Source: Camellia lanceoleosa (Eukaryota; Streptophyta; Magnoliopsida; Ericales; Theaceae). Taken from it: a stretch of 64,000 bases of DNA. Position numbers and translations under genes: made by a program. Each line of letters starts with the position of its first letter. The first letter of the stretch is position 1. The notes under the pieces were generated by a model that saw nothing but the letters and a program-made list of their open reading frames with translations, ran no database searches and was not told where the DNA came from. Positions 1,483 through 43,656 of the stretch are shown in pieces. The stretch is taken from positions 44,535,932-44,599,931 of the forward strand of contig CM045760.1 in the NCBI GenBank assembly GCA_025200525.1. The letters are read 5' to 3'.

Positions 1483-2379
1483 GATTGTGTTTTGTTTAAG
1501 GATTTGATGAGAGAAATGAAAAAGAAAAAGAAAATGCAATTTGTTTTTTGTTTGATTATAATGGCGAAAAATTGAAAAACCCTCGAGATATTAATTTGTG
1601 ATTATGTTTTAATTTTAAATAGTGAATATCAATCCCAATCAAACAATCAACAACAAATCGGCACAATGATTTAACGTGAAAAAAATCACAATACCTCCAA
1701 TTGTGATAAAAAATCACAGGTCAAAGCCACAAAATAATTCACTAAAAAGATAAAAAGGAATTACATACGAGTACCCTCAATTACCTAGCAAGAATCCACT
1801 CCCGAATTAAACCAAACTCGATGTACCTCTTCCACCACCGTCTTCACCTCAGAATTGCTTTGTCCAACGTTAAATCCACAATGCTGATGTCAAATCCACG
1901 ACGATGAGAAACTCTAGAATCCACCAAAGTTTTAGACCCAAATTTTTTGAAATTCATCGAAAAACACCTCTTTTTTTTTGTGAATAAAATTATAAAAATA
2001 AACCCCCTTGATGATGTCAATATGAAACTCGTAAATCCATCGATCACTCTCAAATCATCAAGGAAACCAATATATAAACACCCTCCAATATAGAAAACCT
2101 TAGAAACTCTCCTCTCTGAGAATTTGGACGGATTAAACCCTGAAAATAGCAAACGACGCATTTTATACTAAACAAAGTCGCGAAAATCACTCAAGCGTAC
2201 ACTTTACCCCTCCAGTGGTGTGAGTAAAGGTGGTGCAAACATATATGCCAACGGCTCAAGCGCAACATCCACTGCTAGAGCGGTAAAACTTGTTTCCTAG
2301 AAGTTCAAACACAGATAGAGATACCGGATGAACCACTTCATTGCTCGAGCACACAAATGACCGCTCAAGCAGTCAAACA
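1483..2379 (-). mobile_element. Decayed LTR remnant with degenerate palindrome array
   Basis: No conserved coding sequence. CTCGAG-derived hexamers lie at 2190, 2210, 2255, 2275, 2344 and 2364, that is in pairs 20 bp apart. Most carry CpG decay (CTCAAG) or other single changes. A minus-strand TATA box (TATAAAA) lies at 2161-2167, about 22 bp downstream of the array in minus sense. The layout matches the LTRs near 15.0, 21.9 and 31.1 kb. The 318-bp open frame just beyond the TATA box (1844-2161, minus) has no recognisable product and is probably leader sequence. Confidence 0.4.
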
Positions 2380-7591: not shown

Positions 7592-9359
7592 TTAGGTGGA
7601 GACGTCAACCATACCCGCCAAAGTTCGACACTTTAAATGTTTGTCCCTCGACAAAGTCTTAGTCAACATATCCAAAATATTATCATCTGTGTGAACCTTT
7701 TCGAGTTGCAAAAATTTGGAATCTAACACATCACGAATCCAATGGTATCTCACATCAATGTGTTTCGATCTCGAATGAAAAGTAGAATTTTTACTCAAAT
7801 GAATAGCACTTTGACTATCACAATAAAGTACATACTTTTCTTACTTCAAACCCAGCTCTTGCAAAAATTTCTTCAACCATAACTATTCTTTGCATGCTTT
7901 CGTAATGACAATAAATTCAGCTTCGGTTGTTGAGAGAGCAACACATTTTTGTAATTTAGATTGCCATGCCACAACTCCCCCTACAAAAGTCATCAAATAC
8001 CCCGAAGTAGATTTTCTAGAATCAACATCACTGGCCATGTCAGAATCCATGAACCCATCAAGCATCAACTTACCATCCCCAAAACACAAACACACATTCG
8101 AAGTCCCTCGAAGATACCTTAGAATCCATTTTACCACTGTTCAATGTTCTTTACCCGGATTAGAGAGAAACCGACTCACCACACCAACGGCGTGAGCAAT
8201 ATCCGACCTTGTACAAACCATGGCGTACATCAAAGAACCAACTGCTGAAGCATAAGGAATTTTCAACATCTCTTCTTTGTCTTTCTCACTTATAGAACAT
8301 TGATTCGAACTAAGCTTGAAGTGACCTGCAAGTGGACAACCAACCAGTTTTGCTTTATCCATGTTGAACCTCTCAAGAACTTTCTCAATGTAGCTTTCTA
8401 GAGACAACCAAATCAGCCCCCTCTTTGCGATCACGGACAATTTTCATACCAAGTATTTGCTTTGCTAGTCCCAAATCTTTCATAGCAAAAGACTTGCTCA
8501 ACTCTAATTTCAACTTGTTAATCATGGTAGAATTTTGACCCACAATTAACATGTCATCAACATAAAGCAAAAGAATAATAAATTTGCCATCCGAAAATTT
8601 TTTCACAAACACACAATGGTCCGAAGTGGTTTTAGAAAAACCATTATTCATCATGAAAGAGTCAAATTTTTTGTATCATTGCCGCAGAGCTTGCTTGAGA
8701 ACATACAAACTTTTCTTCAATTTGTAAACAAATTTCTCTTTCTCTTTTTCTACAAAACCTTCCAGTTACTCCATGTAAATTTTTTCTTCAAGATCACTAT
8801 GAAGAAATGCGGTTTTCACATCAAGTTGTTCAACTTCAAGGTTCATACTTGCAGCCATGCCAAGTACAACCTGAATAGAAGACATCTTCACAACTGGCGA
8901 GAAAATTTCATTAAAGTCAATACCTTTCTTTTGCCCAAAACTTTTCACAACAAGACGTGTTTTATACCTCAGATTCTTACTATCATTCTTCAATTTGAAA
9001 ACCCACTTATTTTTCAGAATTTTCCTCCCTTTAGGCAACTTCACTAAATCATAGGTGTAATTTTCAAGTAAGGAATTCATCTCCTCTTCCATGGCCTTTT
9101 TCCAATCATCTTTCTTTGCATGCTCAATTGCTTTTTGGTAGTTCTCAGGCTCCCCTAGATCGGATATCAGTACAAATTCATTGGGAGGATACTTTCTTGA
9201 AGGTTGTCGGTCCCTTGTAGATTTCCTCAACTCAAGTTGTGGTGGCGGTTCTTGAGTTTGATGATCTTCCTCAATTTTTGGCTCAACTTCATTTTGAATA
9301 GCATCATCATCTACATCTTCAAGTAGTGGCTGCACATCTCCCCCATTTTCATTATCCAC
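7592..9359 (-). pseudogene. pol: Copia reverse transcriptase and RNase H (broken)
   Basis: Reading from 9359 down to 7592, a linker is followed by copia RT. The frame from 9359 has DWKKAMEEEMNSLL, NKWVFKLK and QLDVKTAFLHSDLEE, the last holding the first catalytic Asp. The next fragment has LLYVDDMLIVG (active-site YVDD). The fragment at 8440-8141 covers the RT thumb region, and 8137-7883 starts RNase H (SRKSTSGYLMTFVGG, then ALSTTEAEF). The fragment 7798-7592 ends it with KHIDVRYHWIRD and DMLTK. Frame changes near 8766-8650, 8400, 8140 and 7880-7800 break the frame into five pieces, so no functional enzyme is expected. Confidence 0.93.
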
Positions 9360-9378
9360 CGAAGACGAAGGAGATGGA

Positions 9379-10788
9379 TCATGTCAATGAGATCACTAGT
9401 TTTTGGCTCCGGTTGATCATCTTTGCCAAAATCTTCAATTGTTTGGTCTTCAAGAAACACAACATCACGGCTTCGAATGACTTTCTTATCGATCGGATCC
9501 CAAAATCTATACCCGAATTCATCATGCCCATAGCCAAGAAAAATACATTATCTTGACTTACTATCAAGCTTGGACCTTTCATCCTTTGGAATGTGAACAA
9601 AAGCTCGGCAACCAAACACTCTCAAGTGCTCATAAGACACATCTTTGCTGGTCCAAACTCTTTCTGGAACATCACCATTCAAAGGATAAGAAGGAGACAA
9701 ATTGATCACGTCAACCGTTGTCCTCATTGCCTCACCCCAAAAGGATCTTAGCAATTTAGCTTGTGAAAGCAAACACCTTGTTCTTTCCATAATGGTGCGG
9801 TTCATCCTCTCGGTAACGCCATTTTGTTGAGGAGTCCTTTTAACTGTCTTTTGGTGTCGATTACCTTGGCTGGGACAATACTCATCAAATGGTCCAATGT
9901 ATTCACCACCATTGTCTGATCAGATGCACTTCAATTTTTGCCATGTTTCTCTTTTAACCATGGCCTGAAAATGCTTAAATATTTCTAGAACTTAATCTTT
10001 AATTTTTAGAATAAAAGCCCAAACTTTCCTTGAATAATCATCAATGAAAGTAACAAAATAAAGTGCACCACTATGTGTTCTAACTTTTAAGGACCACAAA
10101 CATCCGAATGAATTAACTCCAAAACATTTTCTTTCCTAGAAGCAATATTTTTATGAAAAGAAACTCTATGTTGTTTACCCTTCAAACAATTAACACAAGT
10201 TTTAAGATGTGTACCTTTCAAACTGGGTAGAAGCTTTTTCTTGAACAAAACTTGTAGCCCCTTTTCACTCATATGGCCAAGCCGCTTGTGCCACATTTCG
10301 GTAGAAGTATCATCTTCAAGTGCATTAACAACACCTTTACAAATTTTTCCTTGCATCGAATAAAGTGTATGAGTCTTCTTGCACTTAGCCATCACCAAAG
10401 AACCATTTGTGAGCTTCCATATTCCATCACCAAATTTGTTGTTGAAGCCTTTATCATCTAGCTTCCCGGTAGAGATCAAATTGAGGCGAATATCAGGAAC
10501 ATGCCTCACATTTTTAAGCAACAACTTGCAGCCCAAATTTGTTTCCAAACAAACATCACCCATGCCAATATTCTTGGACAAACCTTCATTACCCATTCGA
10601 ACAGAACCATAATCTCTTTTGGTGTAGGTAGTGAAGAAATCAACTCGAGAAGTCACATGAAAAGAAGCACCAGAATCAATCACCCAATTGCTCTCTTGGC
10701 CCACAAAATTGATACAATCATCTTCACAAACGACCATGAGATCACCATTGGTAGTAACTGTTATTGTGATTTCTTGCTTCTTATCCAC
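9379..10788 (-). pseudogene. pol: Copia protease and integrase (broken)
   Basis: The frame from 10788 contains the retroviral-type aspartic protease motif (WVIDSGASFHVTS, near 10690-10650). It is followed by the integrase zinc-binding region (WHKRLGHMSEKGL with two His, then CVNCLKGKQHR with two Cys) and ELIHSDVCGP. The integrase catalytic acids are visible after 10087 in shifting frames: FIDDYSRKVW, SDNGGEY and QQNGVTERMNRT. A stop interrupts the segment just before SDNGGEY. The frames from 9805 and 9615 carry the integrase C-terminal part (FWGEAMRTTVDVINLSPS, HLRVFGCRAFVHIP). Catalytic residues survive but the reading frame does not. Confidence 0.92.
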
Positions 10789-14731: not shown

Positions 14732-14736
14732 GAGCT

Positions 14737-16854
14737 TATAGCGACCCCGGTCTTTTCCATTTGGTTGTTGTATCCGGACTTACGTTTCGTAGATCCTGTT
14801 GTTATATATTTGTTGTTGTCGTCCTTTAATTTCTTATTTTTGAGTTATAGGATGTTTTGGGACAGGTTGGTTACAGGTTGGGAGTATTTGGGAGCAAAGG
14901 GTTGCTGCCCAGAATTTTGGTCCTTCGCTCGAGCGAGCTCTTTGTTTTTGGTCCTTCGCTCGAGCCAGGGTGTCTTCGCTCGAGCGAGCGACTGCGTCTA
15001 GTATAGTCCTGAGAGCTATATTTCTTGGCTCGAGCGAGCTTTTCTTCTCTCGAGCGAGCGAGGTGTATGTTTTCGAGTTCTTCGCTCGAGCGAGCATTCT
15101 GTCGCTCGAGCGTGCTTCTGGGTTGCAGACCTGAACCATTGTGTTGTTGGCTCGAGCGAGTCTTTCTACGCTCAAGCGAGTATTCTTTGTGTCTGGTCGC
15201 TCGAGCGACCAAGTCTTCACTCGAGCGAGCCTGTTTTATTTAAATATGCAACAGCGGTTTTTAAAACACTTTTTCATCCTCTTTTTGATTTCAGAACCCT
15301 AGGTCCGTGTTTTCTCTCCCTCCACTCACCTTCTCTCTTAGGTTTCATCTATTATCAAGGTGTTCCTACCCTAGGTTCTTTATTAAAAAGATAGAGGGTT
15401 ACGAGGGTTTTACTTTAATCTGAGAGTTTGGCGGTTTGGAGCACTTTGGATTTTGGGTCATCATCTCCATCATCTCCATTTGAGTTCTTCACTTCGAGGT
15501 AGGGATTTCCTACTTCATATTATAGGTTTTGTCCTAAGTTTTGGTATTTTTGATATGTTGGTATCGTTCAGTAATTTTGGGAAAAACGGGGTTTGTATTA
15601 TAACTTGAGAAATAGGGAATTTGTTTATATATTAAATTCCATGTGATTGTGAATCATGAAAAATGGCATTGGTAGTGTCAAGTTGGTAAAATTGAACCTT
15701 AGGGTTAATTTTGAGGAAAGGGGGAAAAGCCCTAATTGTTGTAATAAATTAATTTGTATAATTAATTTTTGAGAAAATCGTGGAATTAAGTTTAATTCAT
15801 GAAATTGGGGAACTATGGGATTAAAAGGTGTAGTTGGTTAATTTAATCGCTCACCTATGAAAATGTTGAGTTTACATTTGTTGATACATTTATTTCCTGT
15901 TTAGAAATAACTGTTTTGGGCTATCGGTGAAGGATAGTCGTGATTATTGTAGACATCGCATGTTGATTAGGGAAAACTGAAACTAATCACATTGAATGAG
16001 TCATTAGATATGACAGTTGAATTAATACAACGAATCTGTGTATTGATTGAATATTGTGTATGACAAGTGTTTAATACATTGTATATGCATATTGTTTGGG
16101 AGGAGATAAGGAATGTACGCCATGGTTTGAGGGAAGATAGGGGATGGACTCTCAAACCTGTTTAGGAGGAGAAAGGGGATGGACTCCATTAGTATAGCAA
16201 ATATGTGTACTTATTGATTTATGGAAGTGTTTTAGTATGAGCCTTAGTCTCATTTGATTTGTTGATATTGGAAGTAATGTTAATGTGAGATGTAATCTCA
16301 TTATTATTGTTTGGCCAGGTTCTGAGCCATGTTTGTATAATTGGAAAGTTGAATAATAACGTAAAGTGAAACATGTCATGGACATTATTATCATGAAACT
16401 GTAGAGTGTTATAATGGATTTAAAAGTGTTAACTATATATCGAATGCTATTACTTTAGTCAATTCTTATATTTGGTTTAGTATATTCCTACTGGGTTGTG
16501 GCTCACCCTATACGGGAACATCATTTTCAGGTTCAGGTGATATGCTACCTCCAAGGAATTAGCTTGGAAGGATTTGGAGTTGAAGACTCTGTTTAGATTA
16601 GTTGTTATTTTGTTTTGTTTTGATATTACATGTAAACTCAAGGCAAGGGCTTAATATATAATTGAGTTAGTACTCAGACTTTTGTGTCCAAGTGTTGGCT
16701 TGGAAAGATGTAAGCCCGTAGGGCATTTACTTTCGTTATTACATGTAATGTCTTTTAATAAGATTACTCTGATGAATGGAATAAGGCTTTGGTTTTTTTT
16801 AATCAATGTATGTTAATATTGTATATATTATGGATTTATTTTGAGGGTGTTACA
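14737..16854 (+). repeat. Gypsy 5' LTR
   Basis: It begins TATAGCGACC immediately after TSD GAGCT and ends GGTGTTACA directly before the PBS. It contains the CTCGAG palindrome array (14928-15225), a TATA-like TTATTTAAATA at 15236-15246, and a long AT-rich transcribed part. It is nearly identical to the 3' LTR by eye, so the insertion is fairly recent. Confidence 0.95.
14924..15229 (+). promoter_or_regulatory. Paired CTCGAG palindrome array in 5' LTR
   Basis: CTCGAG cores, mostly inside CGCTCGAGCG, start at 14928, 14959, 14979, 15029, 15049, 15085, 15105, 15151, 15171 (as CTCAAG), 15200 and 15220. Apart from the first, they form five pairs exactly 20 bp apart, with 49-70 bp between pair starts. 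The array ends 11 bp before the TATA-like box. Position and spacing suggest promoter-proximal binding sites; this function is inferred. Confidence 0.7.
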
Positions 16855-16857
16855 ACT

Positions 16858-16869
16858 TGGTATCAGAGC
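16858..16869 (+). other. Gypsy primer-binding site
   Basis: TGGTATCAGAGC, three bases after the 5' LTR, is the exact complement of the 3' end of plant initiator tRNA-Met. Confidence 0.93.
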
Positions 16870-17263
16870 ATACCGGGTTTGAATACTTTGGGTACGTGGG
16901 GAGTGATTAGTATCACAATGGGTTTGTCTCGCTTGTTAGAGACTTATGTATGATAATATGTATTTATTTGATAACATGCTTATATGACTATTTGGGTATG
17001 GGATTTAATTTCTAGGATGTTTATTGGATCCTTGAGTTTCTATGAGTCTTGTTAGAAAAGCACTTGATCAATGCTGTTTGTAACCAGAACTCTAATAACG
17101 CCTCGGGACTATCATTATCCAGGAATGAAATTCGTAGGTGCTTATGTGATTATGTGCTTACGTGGAGTGAATTACTGTTGTCCAATGCATTAGGAAGCTG
17201 TTATAGCTTCAGCACATTTATTAATGTGCAAACGTATTAATTGTCTTTGTTACCTTTATTAGG

Positions 17264-18345
17264 ATGTCAGGACGAGGACGAGGACGTGGTAGGCATGGTA
17301 GGCAGGAGATGCCTATTCCGGATGAGATTCAGGCGGCGAGGAGGGAGTTGGCCGAGCCAATGTGGCCGGTGGAGTCAGGCTATGGGTGCTTTGGCCCGAG
17401 AGATAGCAGGGGCATTCAGGGAGTCTGTAGGCATTCTCAGAGCTGAGAATCAAGCCCCGGTTCATGTTGCAGACGCAGGACCTTCTTTTCTGAAGAGGGA
17501 GTTCTTCCGGTCTAACCCGGACAAATTTTTGGGTGATCATAAAGAGCCACTTAAGACAGATGAATGGCTCGAACAGACAACAAAGATGTTTGTGATGCTA
17601 GGCATCGAAGACGGGGTATTGAAGGTGACCTTGGCATCTTTCCAGTTTAAGGGGGATGGGGGTCAGTGGTGGAAGTTCACAAAGAGCCGTATAGGAAGGA
17701 CTTGGGAGGCTTTTGTGGATGCTTTCTAGGAGAAGTTCCTGTCTCCAGCTGTTAACGAGAGGTTGAGGGAGCAGTTCTGCCAGCTTAAGCAGCTGAGTTC
17801 TTTAGTGGCCGAGTTTGAGGCCGCATTTACTAGTTTATCCAAGTTTGCACCTGAGTTGGAGGCGTCTGAGGAACGCAGGCGTCTGAGGAACGCCGGTGTC
17901 TTGAGTTTGAAAAGAAGTTGAAGCATGGCCTCAAGATGAGAGTTGGGGGTTCTATGATCCGAGAGTACGGGCGTCTTGTGGATGCTGCAGCCCATATGGA
18001 GATCATGATGCAGAAGGAGGAGGAGAGGCAGAGGGGCTCCAAGAGGAGTCAGGATGATCAGAGTGATGGCAGGAGACAGAGGGGTTTTAACCCTCAGCAG
18101 TCTCAGAGTAGCTTTACTAGATCGACTTTTCCAAGTCTTGAGTCAGTTTAGGAAAGGCACCAGGAGACATTACTTGCTTCAAGTATGGTCACTGGGCCAC
18201 AAGTCTCAGCTTGCCCAGAAGGAGGAGGCGGCGTCATCTTGGCTCGATCTCGAGCCGAGTCGAGGTAGAGGCGGTCGCTCTCGTGTTATCAGTGTGGTCA
18301 GGCAGGGCACCTGTAGAGGTTTTGCCCGCAGTTGAGTGGCACATC
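17264..18345 (+). pseudogene. gag: Gypsy gag with CCHC zinc knuckle (broken)
   Basis: The ATG at 17264 opens with MSGRGRGRGRHGRQE, a common chromovirus gag start. The frame shifts near 17385 into the track carrying FLKREFFRSNPDKFLGDHKEPLKTDEWLEQTTKMF and WWKFTKS, the conserved retrotransposon gag core. A TAG at 17727 interrupts FQEKF. A 15-bp direct duplication (GCGTCTGAGGAACGC twice, 17864-17895) shifts the frame again. At 18284-18325 the knuckle CYQCGQAGHL-stop-RFC keeps all CX2CX4HX4C ligands but has TAG where Gln is usual. Gag would form the particle and bind RNA; this one cannot be made whole. Confidence 0.88.
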
Positions 18346-20390
18346 TGGTGCATCTAGTTTGAGGCAGACTCAGAGTCGTCAGGCAGCTCAATCTGTTCAG
18401 GCCTCGAAGGCCAATCAGGGGGCTTCATCGTCCCAGTCTGTGCAGCAGTCTTATGCTCCTAGAGGTGAGCAGGTTGATCAGAGACCGTCTGGGCGCGTGT
18501 ATGCTGTTATCGCGCAGGATCTTGTACCGGCTCCATCGGTTGTGAGAGGTACCTTCTTGTTTTACAACTCGGTTGCTAGTGTATTGATAGATACGGGAGC
18601 ATCTTATTCTTTTATATCTGCTGCATTTGCATCTGTTTTGGGATTGGAGTTGGCACAGTTAGCATCTCCTATATGTGTAGTATCGCCTGTTGGGGGTGAG
18701 TTGATTTTGAAACACGGGTGTAGAGGTTGTGATATAGAGGTCGCTGATCGTCGGCTTCCGTTTCCTTTTGTAGTTATGCCCATGTCGGGATTTGATGTTA
18801 TTTTAGGTATGGACTGGTTATCGTCATACTGGGCAGTTATTGATTGTTACCGTCAGAGGGTCACAGTATGTACCTTGAGCGGGGATTGTTTTTATTTCTT
18901 GGGGGATCGGGTTGGTAGTGTTTTGCCACCGGTGTATGATCTGCGAGGGCGGAGTGAGTTGAGTGGTCTTCTTGCTAGCCTTTTGAGTAGTGAGTGTGAT
19001 GAGACCCAGACTGTGTTGCCGAGAGTGGTTTGTGAGTACTCAGACGTCTTTCCCGAGGATCTTGTTAGTTTGCCACCTCACAGAGAGATTGAGTTCTCTA
19101 TTGACTTGGTGCCCGGCACGGCGCCGATTTCTATGGCACCATATCGTTTTGCCCCAGTCAAGTTGGTTGAGTTGAAGATTCAACTCCAGGAGTTGTTAGA
19201 TAAGGGCTATATTCGCCCAAGTGTTTCGCTGTGGGGAGCATCGGCCCTCTTTGCTAAAAAGAAATGAGGTGCTTTGAGACTCTGTATCGATTACCAGAAG
19301 TTGAATTGGGCTACGGTCAAGAATAAGTACTCTATGCCTCGTATAGATGATCTGTTCGATCAGTTGAAGGGTTCCTGTTGTTTCTCTAAGATAGATTTGA
19401 GATCAGGTTACCACCAGTTGAGAGTCAGGGAGGAGGATATTCCGAAGACGGCATTCCGTACGCGGTATGGCCATTATGAGTTTCTGGTGATGCCATTTGG
19501 GCTCACCAATGCACCGGCAGTCTTTATGGACTTGATGAACCGGATCTTCCGGGAATTCTTGGATCATTTTGTAGTCATTTTTGTGGACGACATTCTCATC
19601 TATTCACCTTCTGAGGAAGAGCACGAGGAGCACTTGAGAGGGGTGCTTGAGTTACTTAGAGCCCATAAGCTTTATGCCAAGTTTGGGAAGTGTGAGTTCT
19701 GGCTATGGGAAGTCAAGTTCTTAGGTCATGTGGTTTCAGGGGAAGGGGTGTCTGTTGATACAACCAAGATCAAGGCAGTGCAAGATTGGGCACAGCTTAA
19801 GAGTGTCTTTGAGATCCGCAGTTTTCTGGGATTAGCTAGGTACTACCGACGGTTTGTGAAGGATTTCTCCAGGTTAGCTTCGCCATTGACTAGACTGACT
19901 CAGAAGGGAGTCGAATTTGTATGGAGTGAGACTTGTGAAAAGTCGTTCCAAGAGCTGAAAGTTAGATTGACCACCGCTCCGGTCTTGATTATTCCGAAGA
20001 GAGGGTTGGGTTATGCGGTTTATTGTGATGCTTCAGGAGAGGGTTTGGGTTGTGTGTTGATGCAAGAAGGGAAAGTGGTAGCCTATGGCTCACGTCAGTT
20101 GAAAATACATGAGAAAAATTCCCTACGCATAGTCTAGAGTTAGCAGCTGTGATCTTTGCCTTGAAGATTTGGAGGCATTACCTTTATGGTGAGAGGTTCA
20201 AGGTATTCTCGGATCATAAGAGTCTGAAATATCTGTTTACACAGAAAGACTTGAACTTGAGGTAGAGGAGGTGGATAAAGTTCATTGAGGATTATGATTT
20301 CGAGTTGCATTATCATCCGGGGAAAGCCAATGTGGTGGCCGATGCCCTTAGCAGGAAATCTGTTGGTGACATAGCTAGTATAGCCATCCG
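18332..20390 (+). pseudogene. pol: Gypsy protease, reverse transcriptase, RNase H (broken)
   Basis: Protease: VLIDTGASYSFIS (DTG active site, about 18580-18620) and FDVILGMDWL. RT: the frame 18332-19267 runs into HREIEFSIDLVPGTAPIS and stops at TGA in the KKK-G linker. The second frame from 19274 has [44 protein letters not shown] and FVDDILIYS (catalytic Asp pair, about 19580-19590). RNase H begins with [19 protein letters not shown] one-base loss near 20127 shifts frame, and TAG at 20263 interrupts LNLR-RRW. The stop at 20263 and those in gag are single transitions from Gln or Trp codons. Confidence 0.93.
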
Positions 20391-20411
20391 GGAATGGGAG
20401 ATGTTGGGTGC

Positions 20412-22310
20412 TGTCACGCCCTCAAAATTAACCCATAATAAATGATATTAACATGCATCAATACATTAAAACAAGAAGATAATTCCATTCATCAGAGTAT
20501 CAAGAAATAAAACATCAAAATAAATGCCCTACGGGCTTACATCTTGCCAAGCCAATACTTGGACACAAATCCATGAGTTCTAACTCAAAAACAAGTAAAG
20601 CCCTAGGCTTGAGTGTTTTACATATAAAAGCAAATAAACTAAAATAAATCTTCAAGTCCAAATCCTCACAAGCTTAGTCCTTGGAGGTAGTGAACCGCCT
20701 GAACCTGAAAAAAAAGTTCCCATATAGGGTGAGCCACAGCCCAGTAGAGAAATACTAAACCAGACATAAGAATTAACTAAAGCATTAGTATCCAATATAT
20801 GGTTAGCACAAGGTAATAAATTCCCAATTTTAGGACATGTATGCCTACATTGTCTATGACACATGGTCTATGACACAATTCACTTTCCACTTATACCGAC
20901 ATGGCTCAGAACCTGGCCAAACAACTCAACAAGGATATCAAATCAGGTTAACTTCTCTTACAACACAATAAACACACATACTGGTGTTACATTACTCACA
21001 ATCAATTTCACTTCCATACTTCCCAACTGATACACATGGTGGTGATGTATCATATCAACAACAAATAAAGATAAGCACCCACATAAGTGATGCTACTGGA
21101 GTCCATCCCCTATCTCCTCCCAATAAAATCCGGTTTAGAGGTCCATCCCCTATCTTCCCCTAAACCGTGGAGTTCATCCCCTATCTCCTCCAAAACCAAA
21201 TGCATATGCAACACATAGTTAATACAAGTAATGTTCTGTATTAATTCAAGGGTCAGTATAAATGATTAAATTCCAGTTATACCTAAGCCACATGCAAGGT
21301 CTACAACAATCACTGGCTATCCTCCACCGATAGCCCCAAACCATTATTTCTAAGCAAGAAATAATTATCACAATATATATATTATCAATTTCACAGATGA
21401 GTGATTAAATATTCAACTACATCAACAAAATCTCAATTTCCCCAAATCTCATGAATTTAACCAATACACAATTCCCCCTTTAATTAATTACATGAATTAA
21501 TCTATAACGAAACCCTAAGGTTTTCCCAAAATTACCAAACTACCTCCCACATACCAAAACACCAACACTTAGGATTAAAACGTATGCAAGGAGTAGGAAA
21601 TCCCTACCTTAAACCGAAGATCGCAAAAGAAGAAGACGAAGAGGATGCCCGAAACTCCAAAATGCTCCAAATCAAAAACTGCTCCGATTAAAAGAAAGCT
21701 CTCACTCTCCTCTATCTTATTTGTAAGAGAACTAGGGTAGAAACACACCCTAACTAGATCAAACCTAGAGGAAAAGATGTTTAGAGAAGAAGAAAAGTCG
21801 GGCTTTAGGGTTTGGGATAAAAAAGAATGAAAGCGCCTAAAATCCATTGCTGCGTTTAAATCTTTGGACGAGCTCGCTCGAGCGAAGACCTGGTCGCTCG
21901 AGCGACCAGACACAAAAACATACCTCGCTCGAGCGAAAAGAAGCTCGCTCGAGCCAAAGACAAACCATCTCGCTCGAGCGAAGGAAAGCTCGCTCGAGCC
22001 AACAAATACTGCCCTCAGGTCTAGCACTGGACGCAACCCTCGCTCGAGCCAAGAAAGGTTCGCTCGAGCGACGAACCAAAAAGAAGGACCTCGCTCGAGC
22101 GAAGAGAAGCTCGCTCGAGCGACCAAGCTAAAAACTGAACATCAAGAATTGGTTTCTAGACTCAACCAACTTGTAATCAACCTGCCCAAAACATCTTATA
22201 ACCAAAGAATAATGAATCAAGGACAACAACGACAATAATATGGCAACGGAATCCACGGAACATAAGTCCGGATACAATAATCAAATGGGAAAAAGACCGG
22301 GGTCGCTATA
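20412..22310 (-). mobile_element. Solo LTR of related gypsy family nested in pol
   Basis: Read on the minus strand it begins TATAGCGACCCCGG and ends GAGGGCGTGACA, parallel to the host element's LTR but clearly diverged, so it is a different family. The 5-bp duplication GGTGC at 20407-20411 and 22311-22315 proves a single insertion followed by LTR-LTR recombination that removed the interior. It splits the host pol between RNase H and integrase. It has its own palindrome array (21877-22119) and a TTTAAA box (21855-21860). Confidence 0.93.
21873..22123 (-). promoter_or_regulatory. Paired CTCGAG palindrome array in solo LTR
   Basis: CTCGAG starts at 21877/21897, 21928/21948, 21973/21993, 22043/22063 and 22094/22114. 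These are five pairs, each exactly 20 bp apart, with 45-70 bp between pair starts. In minus sense the array ends 17 bp before TTTAAA at 21855-21860. The number of pairs and the spacing match the 5' LTR array, although the sequence between sites has diverged. Confidence 0.7.
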
Positions 22311-22315
22311 GGTGC

Positions 22316-23823
22316 ACTTGGGGAGTTTGATTTACTTCTGGGCGAATCTGTTGAGGCTGCGGCCTTGTTTTCCGTTGTTACGCAGCATACACTTGTGACC
22401 CGAGTGTTAGAGGCACAGAGAGGTGACCTTGAGGTGGAATCTCTCCGAGAGAAGATCTCCAGTGGGAAGGTTGAGAAGGGTTTGACGGTGTATCCCGACC
22501 AGAGTGTGAGATACCGAGACCGTCTGTTTGTGCTGGAGTCTTGCCGAGAGAAGGTAGTCCGAGAGTTTCATCATTCACATCTTGCGGTGCATCCGGGAGG
22601 CACTAAGATGTATCGGGATTTGGGTCGCCAGTTTTGGTGGCAAGGTATGAAGAGAGATGTGGCAGTTTTCGTGTCTAAGTGCCTTACTTGTCAGCAAGTG
22701 AAGGCCGAGCATCAGAGGCCAGCGGGTTTGTTACAACCCTTGCCTATTGCCGAGTGAAAGTGGGAGCATGTCACTATGGACTTCGTTGTAGGTCTTCCGA
22801 AGACTCAACGGGGTAGTGATGCTATTTGGGTGGTGGTAGACCGATTGATTAAGTCAGCGCACTTCATTCCTATGCGCGTGAAAGATTCAGTAGATCACTT
22901 GGCCGACTTGTATATTCGGGACATAGTGAGATTGCACGGGGTCCCAGTGACGATCGTCTCAGATAGAGACCCTCGTTTTACTGCTAGGTTGTGGCAGAGT
23001 TTGCAGAGTGCCTTAGGCACTAAGTTGACCTTTAGCACGGCTTATCATCCTCAGACTGACAGGCAGTCCGAGCGTACTATTCAGATCCTTGAGGATATGC
23101 TTCGGGGTTGTGTTCTCGATTTCAGTGGGTCGTAGGAGAGGCACTTGCCTTTAGTGGAGTTTGCCTACAACAACACTTTCCAGTCTAGTATCGATATGGC
23201 ACCGTTTGAGGCCTTGTATGGCCGACCATGTAGGTCTCCAGTTTGTTGGGCCGAGGTGGGTGATGCAACTTTGTTGGGTCCAAAGTTGGTGAGGGAAACG
23301 ACGGAGAAGGTTGAGCTTATCCGTAAGAGGCTTGTTACAGCCCAGAGTCGTCAGAAATCATATGCCGACCGTAGGAGGAGACCTTTGGTATTTGAGGTGG
23401 GTGATCATGTCTTTCTAAAGATATCACCTAGGCAGGGATTGATAAGATTCGGGAAGAGTGGGAAGTTGTCCCCTCGATTTATTGGCCCTTTTGAGATCCT
23501 TGAGAGGATCGGTGAAATTTACCTATCGTTTAGCTTTGCCACCGCAGTTATCCGGAGTACATGACGTGTTTCATGTGAGTATGCTTCGGAAGTATGAGCC
23601 GGATCCATTGCATGTGTTGGATTGGACCGACTTAGAGGTTGACGAGGATGCCTCGTATGAGGAGAGACCGGTTTGGGTCTTGGATAGGCGGGAGCAAGTC
23701 TTGCGAGGCAAGACCATCCCTTTGGTAAAAGTCTTGTGGAAATATCACGGAGTGGAGGAAGCCACTTGGGAGCGTGAGTTGGAAGTCCGCAAGAAATATC
23801 TGGACATGTTTGTTGATGTGTAA
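22316..23823 (+). pseudogene. pol: Gypsy integrase with chromodomain (broken)
   Basis: Continues the pol interrupted by the solo LTR. The zinc-binding HHCC region is seen as HHSHLAVHPGGTKMYRDLG with CLTCQQVK. The catalytic acids lie in [19 protein letters not shown] and [22 protein letters not shown] at 22755 and TAG at 23133 replace Trp codons, and a one-base insertion near 23512 shifts frame after GKLSPRFIGPFEILERIGE. The last frame gives HDVFHVSMLRKYEPDP and a chromodomain (VKVLWKYHGVEEATWERE), which in chromoviruses steers integration toward modified chromatin. It ends at the TAA after 23820. Confidence 0.93.
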
Positions 23824-24233
23824 TCATGTATTGAGACTTTATAATATTATCGAACTTTAAGAACATTATGTGTGTCTTAAGTTGTAAAACATTGAAAATG
23901 TTTTGGTTTAATGGAAGTATTTTGAAACTTGCCTCATAATGGAAGTTTATTGTAACATTGCATATGTTGAATGTGTTGTAGAATTGGAGTTATATCATAA
24001 AATTGAATATGATATGGAAATGGGAATCATGTATATTGAAAACTGTTGGAATTGAAAGGAAATTGCATATTGATAATGCAGGTTAAAATATATATTGTGA
24101 AATGCCTCTTGATAAGAGACGAAATGACCGGTATTGGGTCAAGTTGCTTATTATTGTAATGTAATATCATTGGAAATTGAGAAAAACCTGTTTTTTTTAA
24201 AACTTATGCTTAATTTCGGGGACGAAATTCTTT

Positions 24234-24246
24234 AAGGGGGGGAGGT
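24234..24246 (+). other. Gypsy polypurine tract
   Basis: AAGGGGGGGAGG directly precedes the 3' LTR. The box GGGGACGAAATTC just upstream is typical of Tekay/Del-type chromoviruses. Confidence 0.9.
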
Positions 24247-26362
24247 TATAGCGACCTCGGACTTTTCCATTTGGTTGTTGTATCCGGACTTACGTTCCGT
24301 AGATCCTGTTGTTATATATTTGTTGTTGTCGTCCTTTAATTCCTTATTTTTGAGTTATAGGATGTTTTGGGACAGGTTGGTTACAGGTTGGGAGTGTTTA
24401 GGAGCAAAGGGTTGCTGCCCAGAATTTTGGTCCTTCGCTCGAGCGAGCTCTTTGTTTTTGGTCCTTCGCTCGAGCCAAGGTGTCTTCGCTCGAGCGAGCA
24501 ACTGCATCTAGTATAGTCCTGAGAGCTATATTTCTTGGCTCGAGCGAGCTTTTCTTCGCTCGAGCGAGCGAGGTGTATGTTTTCGAGTTCTTCGCTCGAG
24601 CGAGCATTCATCGCTTCGGCGTGCTTCAGGTTCTGCGAACTGAAGCATTGTGTTGTTGGCTCGAGCGAGTCTTTCTACGCTCGAGCGAGTATTCTTTGTG
24701 TCTGGTCGCTCGAGCGACCAAGTCTTCACTCGAGCGAGCCTGTTTTATTTAAATATGCAACAGCGGTTTTTAAAACACTTTTTCATCCTCTTTTTGATTT
24801 CAGAACCCTAGGTCCGTGTTTTCTCTCCCTCCACTCACCTTCTCTCTTAGGTTTCATCTATTATCAAGGTGTTCCTACCCTAGGTTCTTTATTAAAAAGA
24901 TAGAGGGTTACGAGGGTTTTACTTTAATCTGAGAGTTTGGAGGTTTGGAGCACTTTGGATTTTGGGTCATCATCTCCATCATCTCCATTTGAGTTCTTCA
25001 CTTCGAGGTAGGAATTTCCTACTCCATATTATAGGTTTTGTCCTAAGTTTTGGTACTTTTGATATGTTGGTGTCGTTCAGTAATTTTGGGAAAAATAGGG
25101 TTTGTATTATAACTTGAGAAATAGGGAATTTGTTTATATATTAAATTCCATGTGATTGTGAATCATGAAAAATGGCATTGGTAGTGTCAAGTTGACAAAA
25201 TTGAACCTTAGGGTTAATTTTGAGGAAAGGGGAAAAAGCCCTAATTGTTGTAATAAATTAATTTGTATAATTAATTTTTGAGAAAATCGTGGAATTAAGT
25301 TTAATTCATGAAATTGGGGAACTATGGGATTAAAAGGTGTAGTTGGTTAATTTAATCGCTCACCTATGAAAATGTTGAGTTTACATTTGTTGATACATTT
25401 ATTTCCTGTTTAGAAACAACTATTTTTGGCTATCGGTGGAGGATAGTCGTGATTATTGTAGACATCGCATGTTGATTAGGGAAAACTGAAACTAATCACA
25501 TTGAATGAGTCATTAGATATGACAGTTGAATTAATACAGCGAATCTGTGTATTGATTGAATATTGTGTATGACAAGTGTTTAATACATTGTATATGCATA
25601 TTGTTTGGGAGGAGATAGGGAATGTACTCCATGGTTTGAGGGAAGATAGGGGATGGACTCCCAAACCTGTTTAGGAGGAGAAAGGGGATGGACTCCATTA
25701 GTACAACAAATATGTGTACTTATTGATTTATGGAAGTGTTTTAGTATGAGCCTTAGTCTCATTTGATTTGTTGATATTGGAAGTAATGTTAATGTGAGAT
25801 GTAATCTCATTATTATTGTTTGGCCAGGTTCTGAGCCATGTTTATATAATTGGAAAGTTGAATAATAACGTAAAGTGAAACATGTCATGGACATTATTGT
25901 CATGAAACTGTAAATTGTTATAATGGATTTAAAAGTGTTAACCATATATCGAATGCTATTGCTTTAGTCAATTCTTATATTTGGTTTAGTATATTCCTAC
26001 TGGGCTGTGGCTCACCCTATACGGAAACATCACTTTCAGGTTCAGGTGATATGCTACCTCCAAGGAATTAGCTTGAAAGGATTTGGAGTTGAAGACTCTG
26101 TTTAGATTAATTGTTATTTTGTTTTGTTTTGATATTACATGTAAACTCAAGCCAAGGGCTTAATATGTAATTGAGTTAGTACTCAGACTTTTGTGTCTAA
26201 GTGTTGACTTGGAAAGATGTAAGCCCGTAGGGCATTTACTTTCATTATTACATGTAATATCTTTTAATAAGATTACTCTGATGAATGGAATAAGGTTTTG
26301 TTTTTCTTAATCAATGCATGTTAATATTGTATATATTATGGATTTATTTTGAGAGCGTTACA
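24247..26362 (+). repeat. Gypsy 3' LTR
   Basis: Same structure as the 5' LTR, ending GCGTTACA at 26362 and followed by TSD GAGCT. CTCGAG sites start at 24438, 24469, 24489, 24539, 24559, 24595, 24660, 24680, 24709 and 24729. The partner expected at 24615 has been rewritten (CTTCGGCGTGC). The TATA-like TTATTTAAATA is at 24745-24755. Confidence 0.95.
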
Positions 26363-26367
26363 GAGCT

Positions 26368-29873: not shown

Positions 29874-32321
29874 TATCACGACCCAAACCCGTCCCTATGA
29901 GTTTAGTACCATAACCGGCCAGTAATCCGAGATTACCGAAGGCCTGCTTAACAGTGAAACAATAATACAGAGTACAGGGGTTGGCGGAAGCCAAAACAGT
30001 AATTAAAAGATGTCCAATGAGTTATGATAGTCTGTATGCAAAAAGACTTTTCATACATATATACATAAACGGTACATATACATTCATATACAGTCAGTAC
30101 CAAAACAGTATGCACAGTATTTACAATTATCCAGATCCGGGACTTGATCCCGATTAAGACAATACAGTACAAAAACATTTAGTCTAAATAGATCATAAAC
30201 AAACAGAGCCAAAAGGGGGAATCTAAAACACCCTAAACAGCCTTGGCTTGGACAGTTCTGAAACCTCAAGGTGAGGCACAAAGGTTGGCTTGACAAAACT
30301 GGAGTTACCCTGGCGCTCCTAGCAACGGTCCGGTACCTATTCACTTACATATATATATATATGAGCAGTGAGCTAACGCCCAGTGAATAACATAATGCGT
30401 AAAGAGGTTAAGAATGATTGTCCTTTCAGTATTGAAAACAGTCATTTCAATCAGTATATCAGTTACTCAGTCATAGCAGTCATATGTGGTACATCCAATA
30501 GCAAAATAATACAGTAGGTCTTAGCAGACCGAATAGTCAGTTGATGGCCATCATATCAGTAAACAGTAGTGATTCCAACATGGAAACCGACAGAGATCTC
30601 TGTCGATGGCGATATATCTGATATGATGAGTTGCTAAGGATGCCACAATACAATTCACAATTAGGACATCATTCATTCAGCAACAGTATCATTTTAGAAA
30701 ACAGTACAGTTCAATTGTTCAGAAGATAATCATTTTTGAACATATCTTTACAATATTGTTACTCACAGAGTTCTGGGCTACAGATAAGCTAAAGCGTCTC
30801 CGGATGCCAATCCTACACAGTTACAGAGTGAACACACACTAAGCTACACAGTTGGGAAAAATAATAACTTAATCCATAATTTGCCTCGGTGTGGTTCTAT
30901 ATCAATATCCTCATTAAGATACCTTAAACTAGGCCTAAGAATGCCTAGAATGGAATGAGGATGCAAAGATGCACTTTGAAACACTTTTCAAAATTTTTAG
31001 AAAATAGAGGTCACGCTCGAGCGTGTCTTTCTACGCTCGAGCGGACATGAAGACAAAGGTTCCGCGCTCGAATGTCACTTCCCACGCTCGAGCGGACTGC
31101 AAAACATGGCAAAAGTATTGGATATGTGAAAATCACACTCGATGGGCGCTCTACACCCGCTCGAGCGTGTGACTCAGGTCCCCGCTCAAGCGTAAGTTTC
31201 CCCGCTCGAGCGTACTGTAAAACAATGCAAAGTGTTGGGAGCACGAATTTCACGCTCGAGCGCCACTTTCCCCGCTCGAGCGTGAGTCCAAATTCTGGAA
31301 ATTCCAGATTCGAAGCTCAAGCTCAAAACTAAGTTTAAATGCCTCAAATTCGTTCCTTTTGGGCTAATTTTCTGAAAAACACTTGTAAACTCATAGTATT
31401 ACATGATTCAAAGCTCAATTTGTAAAATCAAATCCTAAAGGTGAGTTAATTAAATACCAATTTCAAACCAACTTTCATGAACATAATGTACATGCAACAT
31501 GCATGAATTGGAACAACTTCAAAGCTCAAATATATGTCCTAGTGAGCCAATTCTTCTCAAAACATGGTGAATTCATGGTCCAATGCAAAAATATGGACAT
31601 GCATGTGGAATTTCATGAACAATAACTTCAAAACTCAAGAATGGCAACGTGCATGCATGGATTAAGCTCTTAATTCAACAATCTAAACCAATTCTAGGCT
31701 CGACTCTTCAATTTAGCATGAAACATTCAAGAACTAACTTAAATACACAATCAAGAAGGTAATTACTCTACCTTAAGTCTCCAACTCCAAGTTTAGAAGC
31801 TAAATTTTGCAATCTCACTTCGAAATCTTCAAGACTCTAAGCAAATATGAAGAACACAAGCTCTTCTCCTACTCTCTAGCTCTCTCTCACGTTTGGTCTC
31901 TCAAGAAGGATGATGAAAAGTGAGGCCAACACATGTAAATCAAGACTAAACATTTGGTCTAGCAAAGTCCACTTAATGGCACTAAGGTAAACAAGTCCAA
32001 CTCTTGTAACTTAGCATTATTTAATCTAATTTAATTATACCAAATCACATTTCAATTAAATATGCCATAAGATCACATAAATTCCAATTAGCGTAAAACA
32101 TCAATCAATTTCGGATTTGGCCGCCGATAAGGCTTTCAATTTGCAGTTTAAAACATAAAACGTGAACAGATAGTTTAACAGTCGAACAGATAGAGATGCA
32201 CTTAAATAGATACAGACAATCAATCAGTTCCAGATTTCGGTCAGTCAGTCAATTAACATGTTTAGTTTCAGTTTAGCAGTAATCAGTAGTTAACCAGTAA
32301 TCAGTGGTGAGGGTTATTACA
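29874..32321 (-). mobile_element. Solo LTR (2.45 kb), gypsy type
   Basis: On the minus strand it runs from TGTAATAACCC to GGGTCGTGATA. CCCAC is duplicated at 29869-29873 and 32322-32326, fixing both ends; no internal coding region remains. The AGTGAGCTAACGCCCAGTGA block near 30365 corresponds to GGTGAGCCACAGCCCAGTAGA in the solo LTR at 20412, so it is distantly related to the Tekay-like LTRs. It carries a five-pair palindrome array at 31013-31282. Confidence 0.9.
31013..31283 (-). promoter_or_regulatory. Paired CTCGAG palindrome array in 29874 solo LTR
   Basis: Cores start at 31016/31036, 31067 (CTCGAA)/31087, 31138 (CTCGAT)/31160, 31185 (CTCAAG)/31205 and 31255/31275. These are five pairs; four are exactly 20 bp apart and one 22 bp. 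The surrounding sequence differs from the other two families, but pair number, pair spacing and inter-pair spacing (47-71 bp) are kept. A weak TATA-like TATTTTCTA lies just downstream in minus sense (near 31000-31008). Confidence 0.68.
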
Positions 32322-36420: not shown

Positions 36421-36808
36421 GTTATTCTTTCTTCTTTTAGTTTATTTCTCTTGTGATATATTTTTTTATTTATAACTCGGTATTCAGTAACTGTTGATTA
36501 GATTATAATGTAGAAGATAGAGAGCAACACATGCGTCACCTCGCCATCAGGATAGCCAATGTCGTCGCTGTCACCGTTGCCATCATTGGCAGCACACTCA
36601 CACTATCAATTGGCCTCTAATGTTCTTGTCCAAGCTCCCTCCGATCTCGAAATCCAAGAGTCCATGCCTGGTTTAATTGAAGATTAAGTGGTTATTATCC
36701 CCTTGTTTGGTACAACTCATTTGAAATTATTAAGAATTGTTTTTTCTTTTTTAAGAATTTTGTGTGACAGTGTTTACTATGGGGTTTTTTTACATAATGT
36801 ATTTAAAT
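35459..36808. other. Intergenic DNA; possible short gene relic
   Basis: Mostly AT-rich, with CT microsatellite at 36390-36420. Around 36530-36690 the base composition changes and short frames read MRHLAIRIANVVAVTVAIIG and NVLVQAPSDLEIQESMPG. These could be scraps of a coding exon but match nothing I recognise. Confidence 0.35.
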
Positions 36809-38846
36809 GGCTTATAATGGATGGAGTGCTGATTGCTAATGAGATTATAGATTGGTGGAAGAAATCAAACAAGCAAGGGGTGATCATTAAGCTTGACTTT
36901 GAAAAAGCCTTTGACATGGTGAATTGGGAGTTCTTATTTGATTTGCTTGCAAAGTTTGGTTTTGGTTCAAAATGGCTGGGTTGGATGAAAACCTGCTTAT
37001 CAACTACCAGTATTTCCATCCTTGTCAATGGCTCACCTACTGATGAAATCCAACCGGAAAGAGGTCTCAGACAGGGCGATCCACTCTCACCCTTCCTCTT
37101 CAATATTGTAGCAGAGGGGCTGAATATCTTACTATCAAGAGCTAAGGTTATGGGCTTAATTAAAGGTGCTAATGTTGGACCTAATGGGCTGGAATTCACT
37201 CACCTGCAATTTGCTGACGACACCATTCTCTTTTGCGAGGCAGATTCAATGGAAATCACAACTTTAAAGAAGATACTTAGATGTTTTGAGATTATGTCAG
37301 GTCTGAAAATTAATTTCCACAAAAGTGTTGTTTGCGGTATTGGAATCTCTGAGACTTTAGTCAATGACTTCTCATCAAAACTGAACTGTCTCACCTAGAA
37401 GCTACCATTAAAGTATCTTGGTCTTCCACTTGGTGCCAATCCTAGAAGGAAAGCCACCTGGAAACCTGTTCTGGATAAATTTAAAAGTAAACTTTCTGGT
37501 TGGAAAAAACGACTTTTATCGTTTGCTGGAAGACTCACCCTTATTAAGTCAGTCTTATCAAACCTCCCAATCTTCTACCTTTTCCTGTTTAAAATGCCAA
37601 AGGGTGTAATCAAAGAGGTGGATAAAATTCAAGCTTCTTTTCTGTGGGGAGACACCGAGGTCAAAAGAAAGGTCCACTTGGTCAATTGGAAGGTTGTCTC
37701 TATGTCAAAAAATCAAGGAGGATTAGGTGTTAGAAGTTTGGGTCAAGTCAATGAGTGTTTACTTGCTAAATGGTGGTAGAGGTTCTGTAATGAGAAACAA
37801 GCCCTATGGAGGAGATTGATCTGTGGCAAGTACAGCAGCAGATCAGGTAGTTGGTTTCACTCCCAAGGTACTATTAGCAATTGCTCTTGGATCTGGAAAG
37901 ACATTATGGGTTTAGCTGCTGATAACCCTACCTTACTCAACTACTTCGTGGTTAACTCAGAATTGGTTGTTGGTAATGGGGCCAATATCTCATTTTGGAA
38001 GGATGGTTGGCTAGGTGGTAACTGTCTTCAATCCCTCTTTCCTAGACTATTTTGTCTTTCTTCTGATAAAGATGGTTCTCTTAAAGATTTTATGGATAGG
38101 AAAAGTAGCTACCCCAACTGGAACTTAACCTTCAGGAGACCTCTGTTGGCATGGGAAGAGGAGGAAGTTCAAAATTTGCAAGTCCTACTGGGTAATGGGC
38201 CATTATTAAGGCATGATGTGGAGGATGGTATGAGATGGAAAGCTTCAAATCAGAGTGCTTCAGATCATGTGACTTATTCTGTTGGTTGCAGTCTAATAGA
38301 GGTCCAGTTGTGTCCATGCCTAAGCTCATCTGGAATAACATCACACCACCAAAAGTTCAATTTTTTTCTTGGCTCGCTTGGAAAGGCAGAATCAAAACAT
38401 CTGTGTTCCTTCATAGCATTGGTGTTCTTCGAGGCGAGGCTGTTACTCAGTGTCACTTTTGCAGAGTAGAACCTGAGTCCCTTAACCATGTATTGCTCCT
38501 TTGCCCCTTTACCTGGAAAATTTGGTCTGACATTATAGATTGGTGGGGTTTTCACTGGGTATGTCCAGGCTCTGTGGTGGCCTTATTTGATTGGTGGATT
38601 GGCACTAAAATCAGGAAGAAGGAGCTCCAAATATGGAAAGCCTTACCACTTGCTGTTTTATGGTCAATTTGGAAGCTCAGGAATGATTGTGTGTTTAATA
38701 GTGCTCAACCTAACTCCCTGCAGCTTTGTGAGCTTATCAAGACTAGAGTTGCCATTTGGTTGAAGAGTCACTCTGTTGGGAACTCATACTCTTATTCCAT
38801 TCATGATTTTATATTTAACTTCAACCGCACTGTGAGGTGCATTTGA
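36809..38846 (+). pseudogene. LINE reverse transcriptase and zf-RVT domain (broken)
   Basis: RT palm motifs: IIKLDFEKAFDMVNWEF, GLRQGDPLSPFLFNIVAEGLN and LQFADDTILFCE (FADD catalytic pair, 37210-37221), then GLKINFHKS. TAG at 37396 interrupts before KLPLKYLGLPLG, and TAG at 37777 follows LAKWW; both fit single transitions from Gln or Trp codons. The connection and zf-RVT part continues (RKVHLVNWKVV, WIWKDIMGL, ISFWKDGW). A frame change near 38290 leads to ITPPKVQFFSWLAWKGR, CHFCRVEPESLNHVLLLCPF and IWKLRNDCVFN. The endonuclease and ORF1 are absent. Confidence 0.92.
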
Positions 38847-43203: not shown

Positions 43204-43656
43204 ATGAAGCTTCTATCTTGGAATATTAGGGGGTTCGGAAAGGCTGAAAAGCAAGGCAAAATAAAAAAACTACTAAAAGATAGACAAATAGATATTGTCT
43301 TTTTTCAAGAGACCAAGAAGGCAGTGGTGTCTGAAATTGCTGTTAGAAGACTCTGGGGTTGTAGAAACATGGAATACATGTCTGTAGATCCTGAAGGAAC
43401 ACCTGGGGGGTTATTATGTATTTGGGACCCTGATGTATTTCAACTTTCTGCTTGCTGTTGTAGTAGGAGATTCATCTTGCTATCTGGTTCTCTTTATAAT
43501 TCTTTTAATTGTGTGTTGCTCAACATCTATGCTCCTAATGAAGTCAACAACAGATCCTTCTTTTGGGACAATCTTATTAAGCTCAAAGTCCCTTTCCCTA
43601 ATCCTTGGTGCTTGGGGGGTGACTTCAATGAAATCAGGCACAGATGGAGTTGCTAG
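43204..43656 (+). pseudogene. LINE ORF2 endonuclease domain, truncated at inversion
   Basis: Starts MKLLSWNIRGFGKAEKQGKI (ATG 43204), the standard start of the APE-like endonuclease. It continues with DIVFFQETKKA (catalytic Glu), LLNIYAPNEV and LGGDFNEIRH (catalytic Asp-Phe-Asn). Immediately after GDFNEIRH (about 43640) the homology ends and minus-strand RT sequence begins. The last third of the endonuclease and the linker to RT, about 250-300 residues in related elements, are missing. Confidence 0.88.

Follow-up and report, generated by a model that had tools for sequence, protein, structure and literature searches.

The window analysed here, a stretch of 64,000 nucleotides from Camellia lanceoleosa (contig CM045760.1 of assembly GCA_025200525.1, forward strand, positions 44,535,932 to 44,599,931), contains element A, a Ty3/gypsy retrotransposon whose long terminal repeats (LTRs) carry arrays of CTCGAG palindromes paired at 20 base pairs (bp). 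Element A is 11.6 kb long, and its LTRs (14737-16854 and 24247-26362) are 97% identical by self-BLAST. A 5-bp target duplication read from the sequence, GAGCT, brackets the element at 14732-14736 and 26363-26367, and a tRNA primer site is located at 16858. The domains, which were found piece by piece, follow the Ty3/gypsy order RVP_2, RVT_1, RT_RNaseH_2, Integrase_H2C2, and rve. SH3_Tf2-1 is above its cut-off, while a gag match and a Chromo match (E 0.0098, Pfam) are below theirs. With the two LTRs, the duplication, the primer site, and the domain order all present, element A is a Ty3/gypsy LTR retrotransposon, and the LTR setting assigned by an earlier reading of the letters alone (hereafter the sequence-only reading) is confirmed. 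A search with the reverse transcriptase protein gave no relative among viral contigs.

The exact hexamer CTCGAG occurs 44 times in the window, compared with 4.06 expected, and none of 100 shuffles reaches 44. A degenerate scan, allowing up to three mismatches in the 10-mer CGCTCGAGCG and one in its core, gives 81 sites and 21 pairs at exactly 20 bp, every one of which lies within five arrays (five and four pairs in the two LTRs of element A, five in array B, four in array C, and three in array D). Other distances up to 28 bp are rare in the window (single pairs at 6 and 22 bp and two pairs at 25), and all 15 exact-core pairs closer than 25 bp are at 20 when both LTRs of element A are counted. 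The sequence-only reading had placed cores between 14928 and 15220, including a CTCAAG at 15171, and every one of them is there. The arrangement is not confined to this LTR: arrays B, C, and D are found in the same window (Table 1). Two irregularities should be noted. In the 3' LTR of element A, site 24595 has lost its partner, and array C contains an exceptional group, 31138/31160, at 22 bp.

Table 1. Position of element A, related LTRs, and palindrome arrays in the window (pairs are given as starts of the two cores).
Feature	Coordinates	Strand	Details
Ty3/gypsy LTR element A	14737..26362	+	interrupted by solo LTR B; self-BLAST, ends by reading, primer site, domains
Array A, 5' LTR	14926..15227	+	probably truncated pair 14928; 14959/14979, 15029/15049, 15085/15105, 15151/15171, 15200/15220
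TATA-like TTATTTAAATA	15236..15246	+	from sequence; ten bases past last core of array A
Array A, 3' LTR	24436..24736	+	24469/24489, 24539/24559, 24660/24680, 24709/24729
Solo LTR B	20412..22310	-	inserted within element A; flanked by target duplication GCACC; identity to LTR A 68-73%
Array B	21875..22121	-	21877/21897, 21928/21948, 21973/21993, 22043/22063, 22094/22114; all 20 bp
Solo LTR C	29874..32321	-	target duplication CCCAC by eye; sense inferred via primer site of related copies
Array C	31014..31282	.	31016/31036, 31067/31087, 31185/31205, 31255/31275
Array D, decayed	2188..2371	.	2190/2210, 2255/2275, 2344/2364

We evaluated the spacing by placing the sites at random inside each array (5000 placements). 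For array A, 0.0002 of the placements with exact cores and 0/5000 with degenerate sites give as many 20-bp pairs as observed; the pairing described earlier is confirmed. When any distance from 10 to 59 is allowed, the P values with degenerate sites are 0.0004 (A), 0/5000 (B), 0.004 (C), and 0.005 (D), and those with exact sites are 0.0016 (A), 0.0002 (B), and 0.21 (C); array D has a single exact site.

The spacing is also found beyond the window. The genome sampled (G000) comprises 3.0 Gb in 790 contigs, from which 20 stretches of 10 kb were taken at preset positions on contigs C1, C2, C3, and C5. This 200-kb sample has 162 degenerate sites, with 11 pairs at 20, 7 at 51, 4 at 29, and 4 at 31, where the mean for the other distances between 10 and 60 is 0.66 pairs. 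The Poisson P for 11 pairs at 20 is approximately 1e-10, with the reservation that pairs within one array are not independent. The 11 pairs come from stretches L125 (four), L120 and L122 (three each), and L118 (one, which looks like chance). Each of 19 palindromes of the same composition gives 0 or 1 pairs at 20 in the sample. One control, CTCGCGCGAG, has 21 window pairs at 20; in all 21, both members lie no more than four bases from a CGCTCGAGCG site, so that these pairs are the same array in a shifted register, and this control has 1 pair at 20 in the sample. Three other control palindromes have 1 window pair at 20. We further ranked all 1024 palindromic 10-mers in the window and the sample together, keeping those whose best spacing occurs in at least three sequences. 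The first places are taken by CTCGAG-centred palindromes at 20 bp, and CGCTCGAGCG itself is third by ratio with the most pairs (32 in five sequences).

Genome searches with three of the arrays gave further copies. Array A yielded 4128 first-look candidates, of which 40 were scored; 38 lie outside the window, and since they were picked by similarity to A, they are biased and do not constitute independent support. Their degenerate pairs number 207 at 20, 1 at 19, 2 at 4, 2 at 16, and 3 at 24, those at 4 and 16 arising from an extra site in two copies. The six-pair pattern with gaps of 20, 31, 20, 50, 20, 36, 20, 46, 20, 29, and 20 is exact in 8 of the 38. In 24 of them, the array starts with a 20-bp pair, the partner lying exactly 20 bp upstream of the site that corresponds to 14928. 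Site 14928 is thus probably what is left of a damaged pair; the five pairs of the original description stand, and its single site looks like the remainder of a sixth. Array C gave 4901 candidates (40 scored), from which eight copies were cut out, one being the window itself. Seven of the eight have four 20-bp pairs and one has three, and every one has the exceptional site group, with sites 11 or 22 bp apart. From the 1169 candidates for array D (40 scored), 12 copies were fetched, which are 78-88% identical. Together with the window, 35 of the 39 possible pairs in this family are at 20; the gaps between pairs are 45, 46, or 47 and 69 or 70, and in the remaining four pairs, one site is lost. 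The enrichment at 20 bp that the sequence-only reading had asked of other copies is found in the 38 A copies, the 200-kb sample, and the D family.

The pairs share a common anatomy. The module opens with CGCTCGAGCG, continues with some four variable bases and a TTYCT-like pyrimidine tract, and closes with a second CGCTCGAGCG, the core starts being 20 bp apart. Arrays of three to six such modules are found in LTR-type DNA belonging to several diverged families of the genome. In a set of 26 pairs from eight arrays, both 10-mers are strongly conserved, and the tract in the spacer reaches 1.15 bits per position, which is stronger than the similar bases preceding the first site. The orientation of the pairs was chosen by hand to make the tract a run of pyrimidines, and part of the skew is therefore built in. 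The sequence between the members does vary, as had been described, though it is partly conserved in this tract before the second site. Most sites have two-fold symmetry over five bases on each side of the centre. The sixth base is complementary in 19 of 21 A and B sites and in 1 of 10 C sites, and beyond it an extended palindrome has no support in these sites. In A and B, the sites are mostly preceded by TTCG or TTGG and followed by CGAG, and in C they are often preceded by CACG or CCCG. A 51-bp pair-to-pair step (20-31-20), near five helical turns, is observed in A, B, C, L120, and L125 (window 14928-15227, 21875-22121, and 31014-31282; L120:3614-3685; L125:3739-4042).

Because the two palindromes of a pair are complementary by construction, their geometry would let the element RNA fold into a stem of some 12 bp with an 8-base loop, and the RNA of LTR elements carries U3 at its 3' end. 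A role in RNA structure is, however, very improbable judging from the 26 pairs, in which no covariation is found. The first base past the 10-mer is complementary in 58% (outer) and 54% (inner), compared with 54% for a site with itself, and the next four positions are complementary across the pair in 8-23%. Differences such as GGCTCGAGCG opposite CGCTCGAGCG in several pairs break the end of the stem.

The array had been described as lying upstream of a TATA box, and this is correct for A and B, where about ten to fifteen bases lie between the array end and the TATA-like motif. Array D, L120, and L122a also have a TATA-like motif within about 25 bases of the array end, on their minus strands (by eye). 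It does not apply to the C lineage, in which the array is inverted, lies approximately 1.1-1.4 kb before the LTR 3' end, and seemingly follows a promoter-like region (by eye). A minus-strand primer site beside a related LTR (L135) and a sense-strand primer site in L128 indicate that the C LTR reads opposite to the array polarity, the pyrimidine tract of array C being opposite to the LTR sense. The orientation and place of the array differ between lineages while the module stays.

The conservation of the sites relative to the spacers should be noted. In the comparison of A with B, a base was scored as identical when B matched either LTR of A; the LTR ends used in the family comparisons were up to about a dozen bases off, which leaves the arrays unaffected. 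Between LTRs A and B, identity is 96.7% in the sites (90 columns), 75% in the intra-pair spacers (40 columns), and 73.4% in the other LTR sequence (1569 columns). The CpGs of A are kept in B in 22 of 23 cases within sites and in 8 of 22 outside the array. Fisher P values are 1.5e-8 for site identity, 1.0 for the spacers, and 2.3e-5 for the CpGs. Between C and L125, the sites are 83%, the spacers 60%, and the other sequence 56% identical, the last value depending on an alignment forced over the full length (about 70% by local BLAST); 21 of 26 CpGs are kept in the sites and 4 of 32 elsewhere (P 1.6e-7). The sites and their CpGs are thus clearly more conserved than their surroundings in two of three family comparisons, and this pattern supports selection on the sites. 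Gene conversion among sites may be a further way to keep them alike, but it would have to spare spacers that are only ten bases long.

An origin by drift of a minisatellite deserves consideration here. A unit of about 20 bp, and units of 45-70 bp containing two of it, would have been duplicated by slippage or unequal crossing-over, leaving the spacing as a functionless fossil. In the alignment of A with B, a gap just upstream of 14928 spans exactly 20 columns, a triplet in L122b stands where 31 columns of C are missing, and the 51-bp step recurs in the five arrays named above. Ordinary tandem repeats here do make such peaks: one same-composition control palindrome gives 13 pairs at 51 in the sample, from plain tandem repeats in L118 and L117. 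Contrarily, the sites and CpGs are kept in A-B and C-L125 while the spacers drift at the background rate. Sites 40 bp apart are absent from the window and from the 38 A copies, and one such pair is seen in the 200-kb sample. The sequence-only reading had named recent tandem duplication of a 20-bp unit, with matching inter-site sequence, as an alternative that would overturn it, and this is partly true of array A, in which TRF reports tandem repeats; in the D family, the spacers of the three pairs differ in sequence and keep the same length. We regard functionless drift as unlikely. A duplication origin of the 20-bp step in A and B is possible, and even so the sites appear to have been kept by selection.

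These observations are best accommodated, in our view, by a selected, orientation-tolerant, putative two-site binding module for a DNA-binding protein that would serve as an LTR enhancer or anti-silencing platform, a reading that we consider probable, with some reserve. The sites recur at the 20-bp spacing across families, and the spacing rule is supported by this recurrence in the A/B, C/L125, and D lineages. Protein binding, which had been proposed from the start, fits both the recurrence across copies and families and the conservation of sites between drifting spacers; the existence of a binder and the function of the module are what we infer. The interpretation given by the sequence-only reading is partly supported, the nucleosome or methylation-sensitive switch that it also proposed being conjecture. 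Each palindrome would be recognized by a dimeric, sequence-specific DNA-binding protein, and two dimers about two helical turns apart would sit on the same DNA face and bind together. An array would then recruit many protein copies and drive or de-repress the LTR in a manner tolerant of position and orientation, acting like an enhancer or an anti-silencing platform.

Several points weigh against the binding module, besides the forced alignment behind the C-L125 background. The strict spacing is broken by a 3-base deletion inside a site in the D copy L146, by a triplet in L122 (9392/9412/9432), and by the 22-bp or 11+11-bp site group in C. With exact cores, the 200-kb sample has 49 sites and only 2 pairs at 20, equal to the numbers at 41 and 50. 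The comparison of C with L122b is weak (sites 79%, spacers 50%, other 72%; CpGs 17 of 23 compared with 8 of 19, P 0.06). The four pairs shared by A and B have no indel, yet zero is not significant over 120 columns (P 0.21). In array A, TRF detects 20-bp repeats at two places, with copy numbers of 2 to 2.5, and the pyrimidine tract likewise leaves room for an origin by 20-bp duplication. Finally, arrays A and B are homologous, as are C, L122b, and L125, so that there may be only three or four independent lineages. Array D with its flanks aligns to none of the seven other arrays at E 1e-6.

Repeated short activator motifs in the U3 of plant LTR elements are known from the Tnt1 BII-box and the Tto1 repeats, which are tandem copies of one motif and are not known to form a constant-spaced palindrome pair across families. 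A closer likeness is found in the VANDAL elements of Arabidopsis, in which the element-encoded anti-silencing protein VANC binds a motif array in noncoding element DNA (PMC5735166; PMC10398659). As in the arrays described here, the VANC targets are short motifs densely repeated in the noncoding portions of mobile elements of plants. Those arrays evolve by gain and loss of repeats, and the VANC6 motif also occurs in the unrelated AT9TSD1 (PMC5735166). Unlike the module, VANDALs are not LTR elements, their motifs are 8-9 bp long and have the same orientation, and the binder is known; no fixed two-site spacing of the VANC motifs appears in the portions of PMC5735166 available to us. In the ONSEN LTR, a heat-responsive element, the site of a host factor, couples the element to host signalling (PMC3907296), in contrast to which the sites here are CpG-rich and paired at 20 bp. 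A spacing-locked palindrome pair common to several LTR families is seen in neither system, as far as the available portions of these papers go.

The VANC analogy makes it conceivable that the module is an anti-silencing platform targeted by a protein made by the elements themselves. Motif arrays in noncoding element DNA that are common to several families, with repeats gained and lost, would agree with this, and a precedent exists in VANC (PMC5735166; PMC10398659, as far as the portions available go). The searched pieces of element A gave only gag, protease, reverse transcriptase, integrase, SH3, and weak chromo matches, though one decayed copy is a poor test. We consider such a platform quite unlikely. 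For the two-site module in general, a host transcription factor is somewhat more likely as the binder than an element-made protein, since LTR families that otherwise do not align share the motif.

A broader proposal is that several diverged LTR families, probably with thousands of copies in view of the numbers of first-look candidates, have come to share one spacing-locked module by convergence or exchange, with one dedicated protein controlling or de-repressing many of them at a time. We put this forward tentatively, as a doubtful possibility. If it is true, the module would be a shared regulatory address for a retrotransposon community. For the long-standing question of what makes certain LTR families proliferate in large plant genomes, a shared module with locked spacing gives a single hypothesis, and finding the protein may provide a means of switching a sizeable share of the element load. 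The arrays also offer a natural case in which the spacing of putative dimer sites is kept while the neighbouring sequence drifts, and one in which methylation-prone CpG sites are retained in elements silenced by the host.

Literature searches with 11- and 12-mers of the motif gave no title on plant mobile elements among the matches listed, and no title among those listed describes the module. Searches for a named CTCGAG motif, element, box, or binding named no factor; their topics were a Pseudomonas genome, prokaryotic and giant-virus methylation, and grass rRNA genes. The main text of PMC11656987, which concerns binding sites in plant LTRs, contains 'CTCGAG' and 'palindrom' 0 times. It is from these title, phrase, and main-text negatives alone that we call the module undescribed. 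An exact scan of bacterial and viral collections with CGCTCGAGCG-N10-CGCTCGAGCG matched 2 viral and 18 genome stretches, and a looser 8-mer scan matched 41 viral ones. Among these matches, more than one exact 20-bp CTCGAG pair is found only in viral contig L045 (1616-3001), and the rest were taken for chance. This contig has 20-bp repeats of its own with GCTCGAGC, different flanks, and a GC content of 0.52, and is probably a coincidence.

Other repeats were observed in the sampled stretches. At L118:7376-8114, a GCTCCGAATCCGGAGAC-like unit recurs in a tandem repeat of about 45-51 bp, which has no relation to the CTCGAG arrays. L123:9387-9677 is an array of a G-box-like palindrome, CGCACGTGCG, spaced at 19-23 bp inside a repeat of about 146 bp. 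As CGCACGTGCG is CGCTCGAGCG with only A and T swapped at two positions, related proteins might, speculatively, read both.

The surroundings of array D and the rest of the window contain several remnants. On the minus strand, array D is accompanied by a TATA-like motif (by eye). The nearby stretch 1040-1482 resembles the 3' portion of LTR A, with 66% identity over 264 columns, and ends in GGCGTTACA (by eye). The array is flanked by stretches like the inverted terminal repeats of a DNA transposon (1492-2990, by eye), suggesting that an LTR-like fragment may have been captured by such a transposon. A foldback element at 28107-28640 matches its own reverse complement at 73%. Remnants at 8766-10788 (-), 36688-37398 (+), and 43634-44698 (-) represent a Ty1/copia-type element, with RVT_2 and gag_pre-integrs domains, and two other reverse transcriptases with RVT_1.
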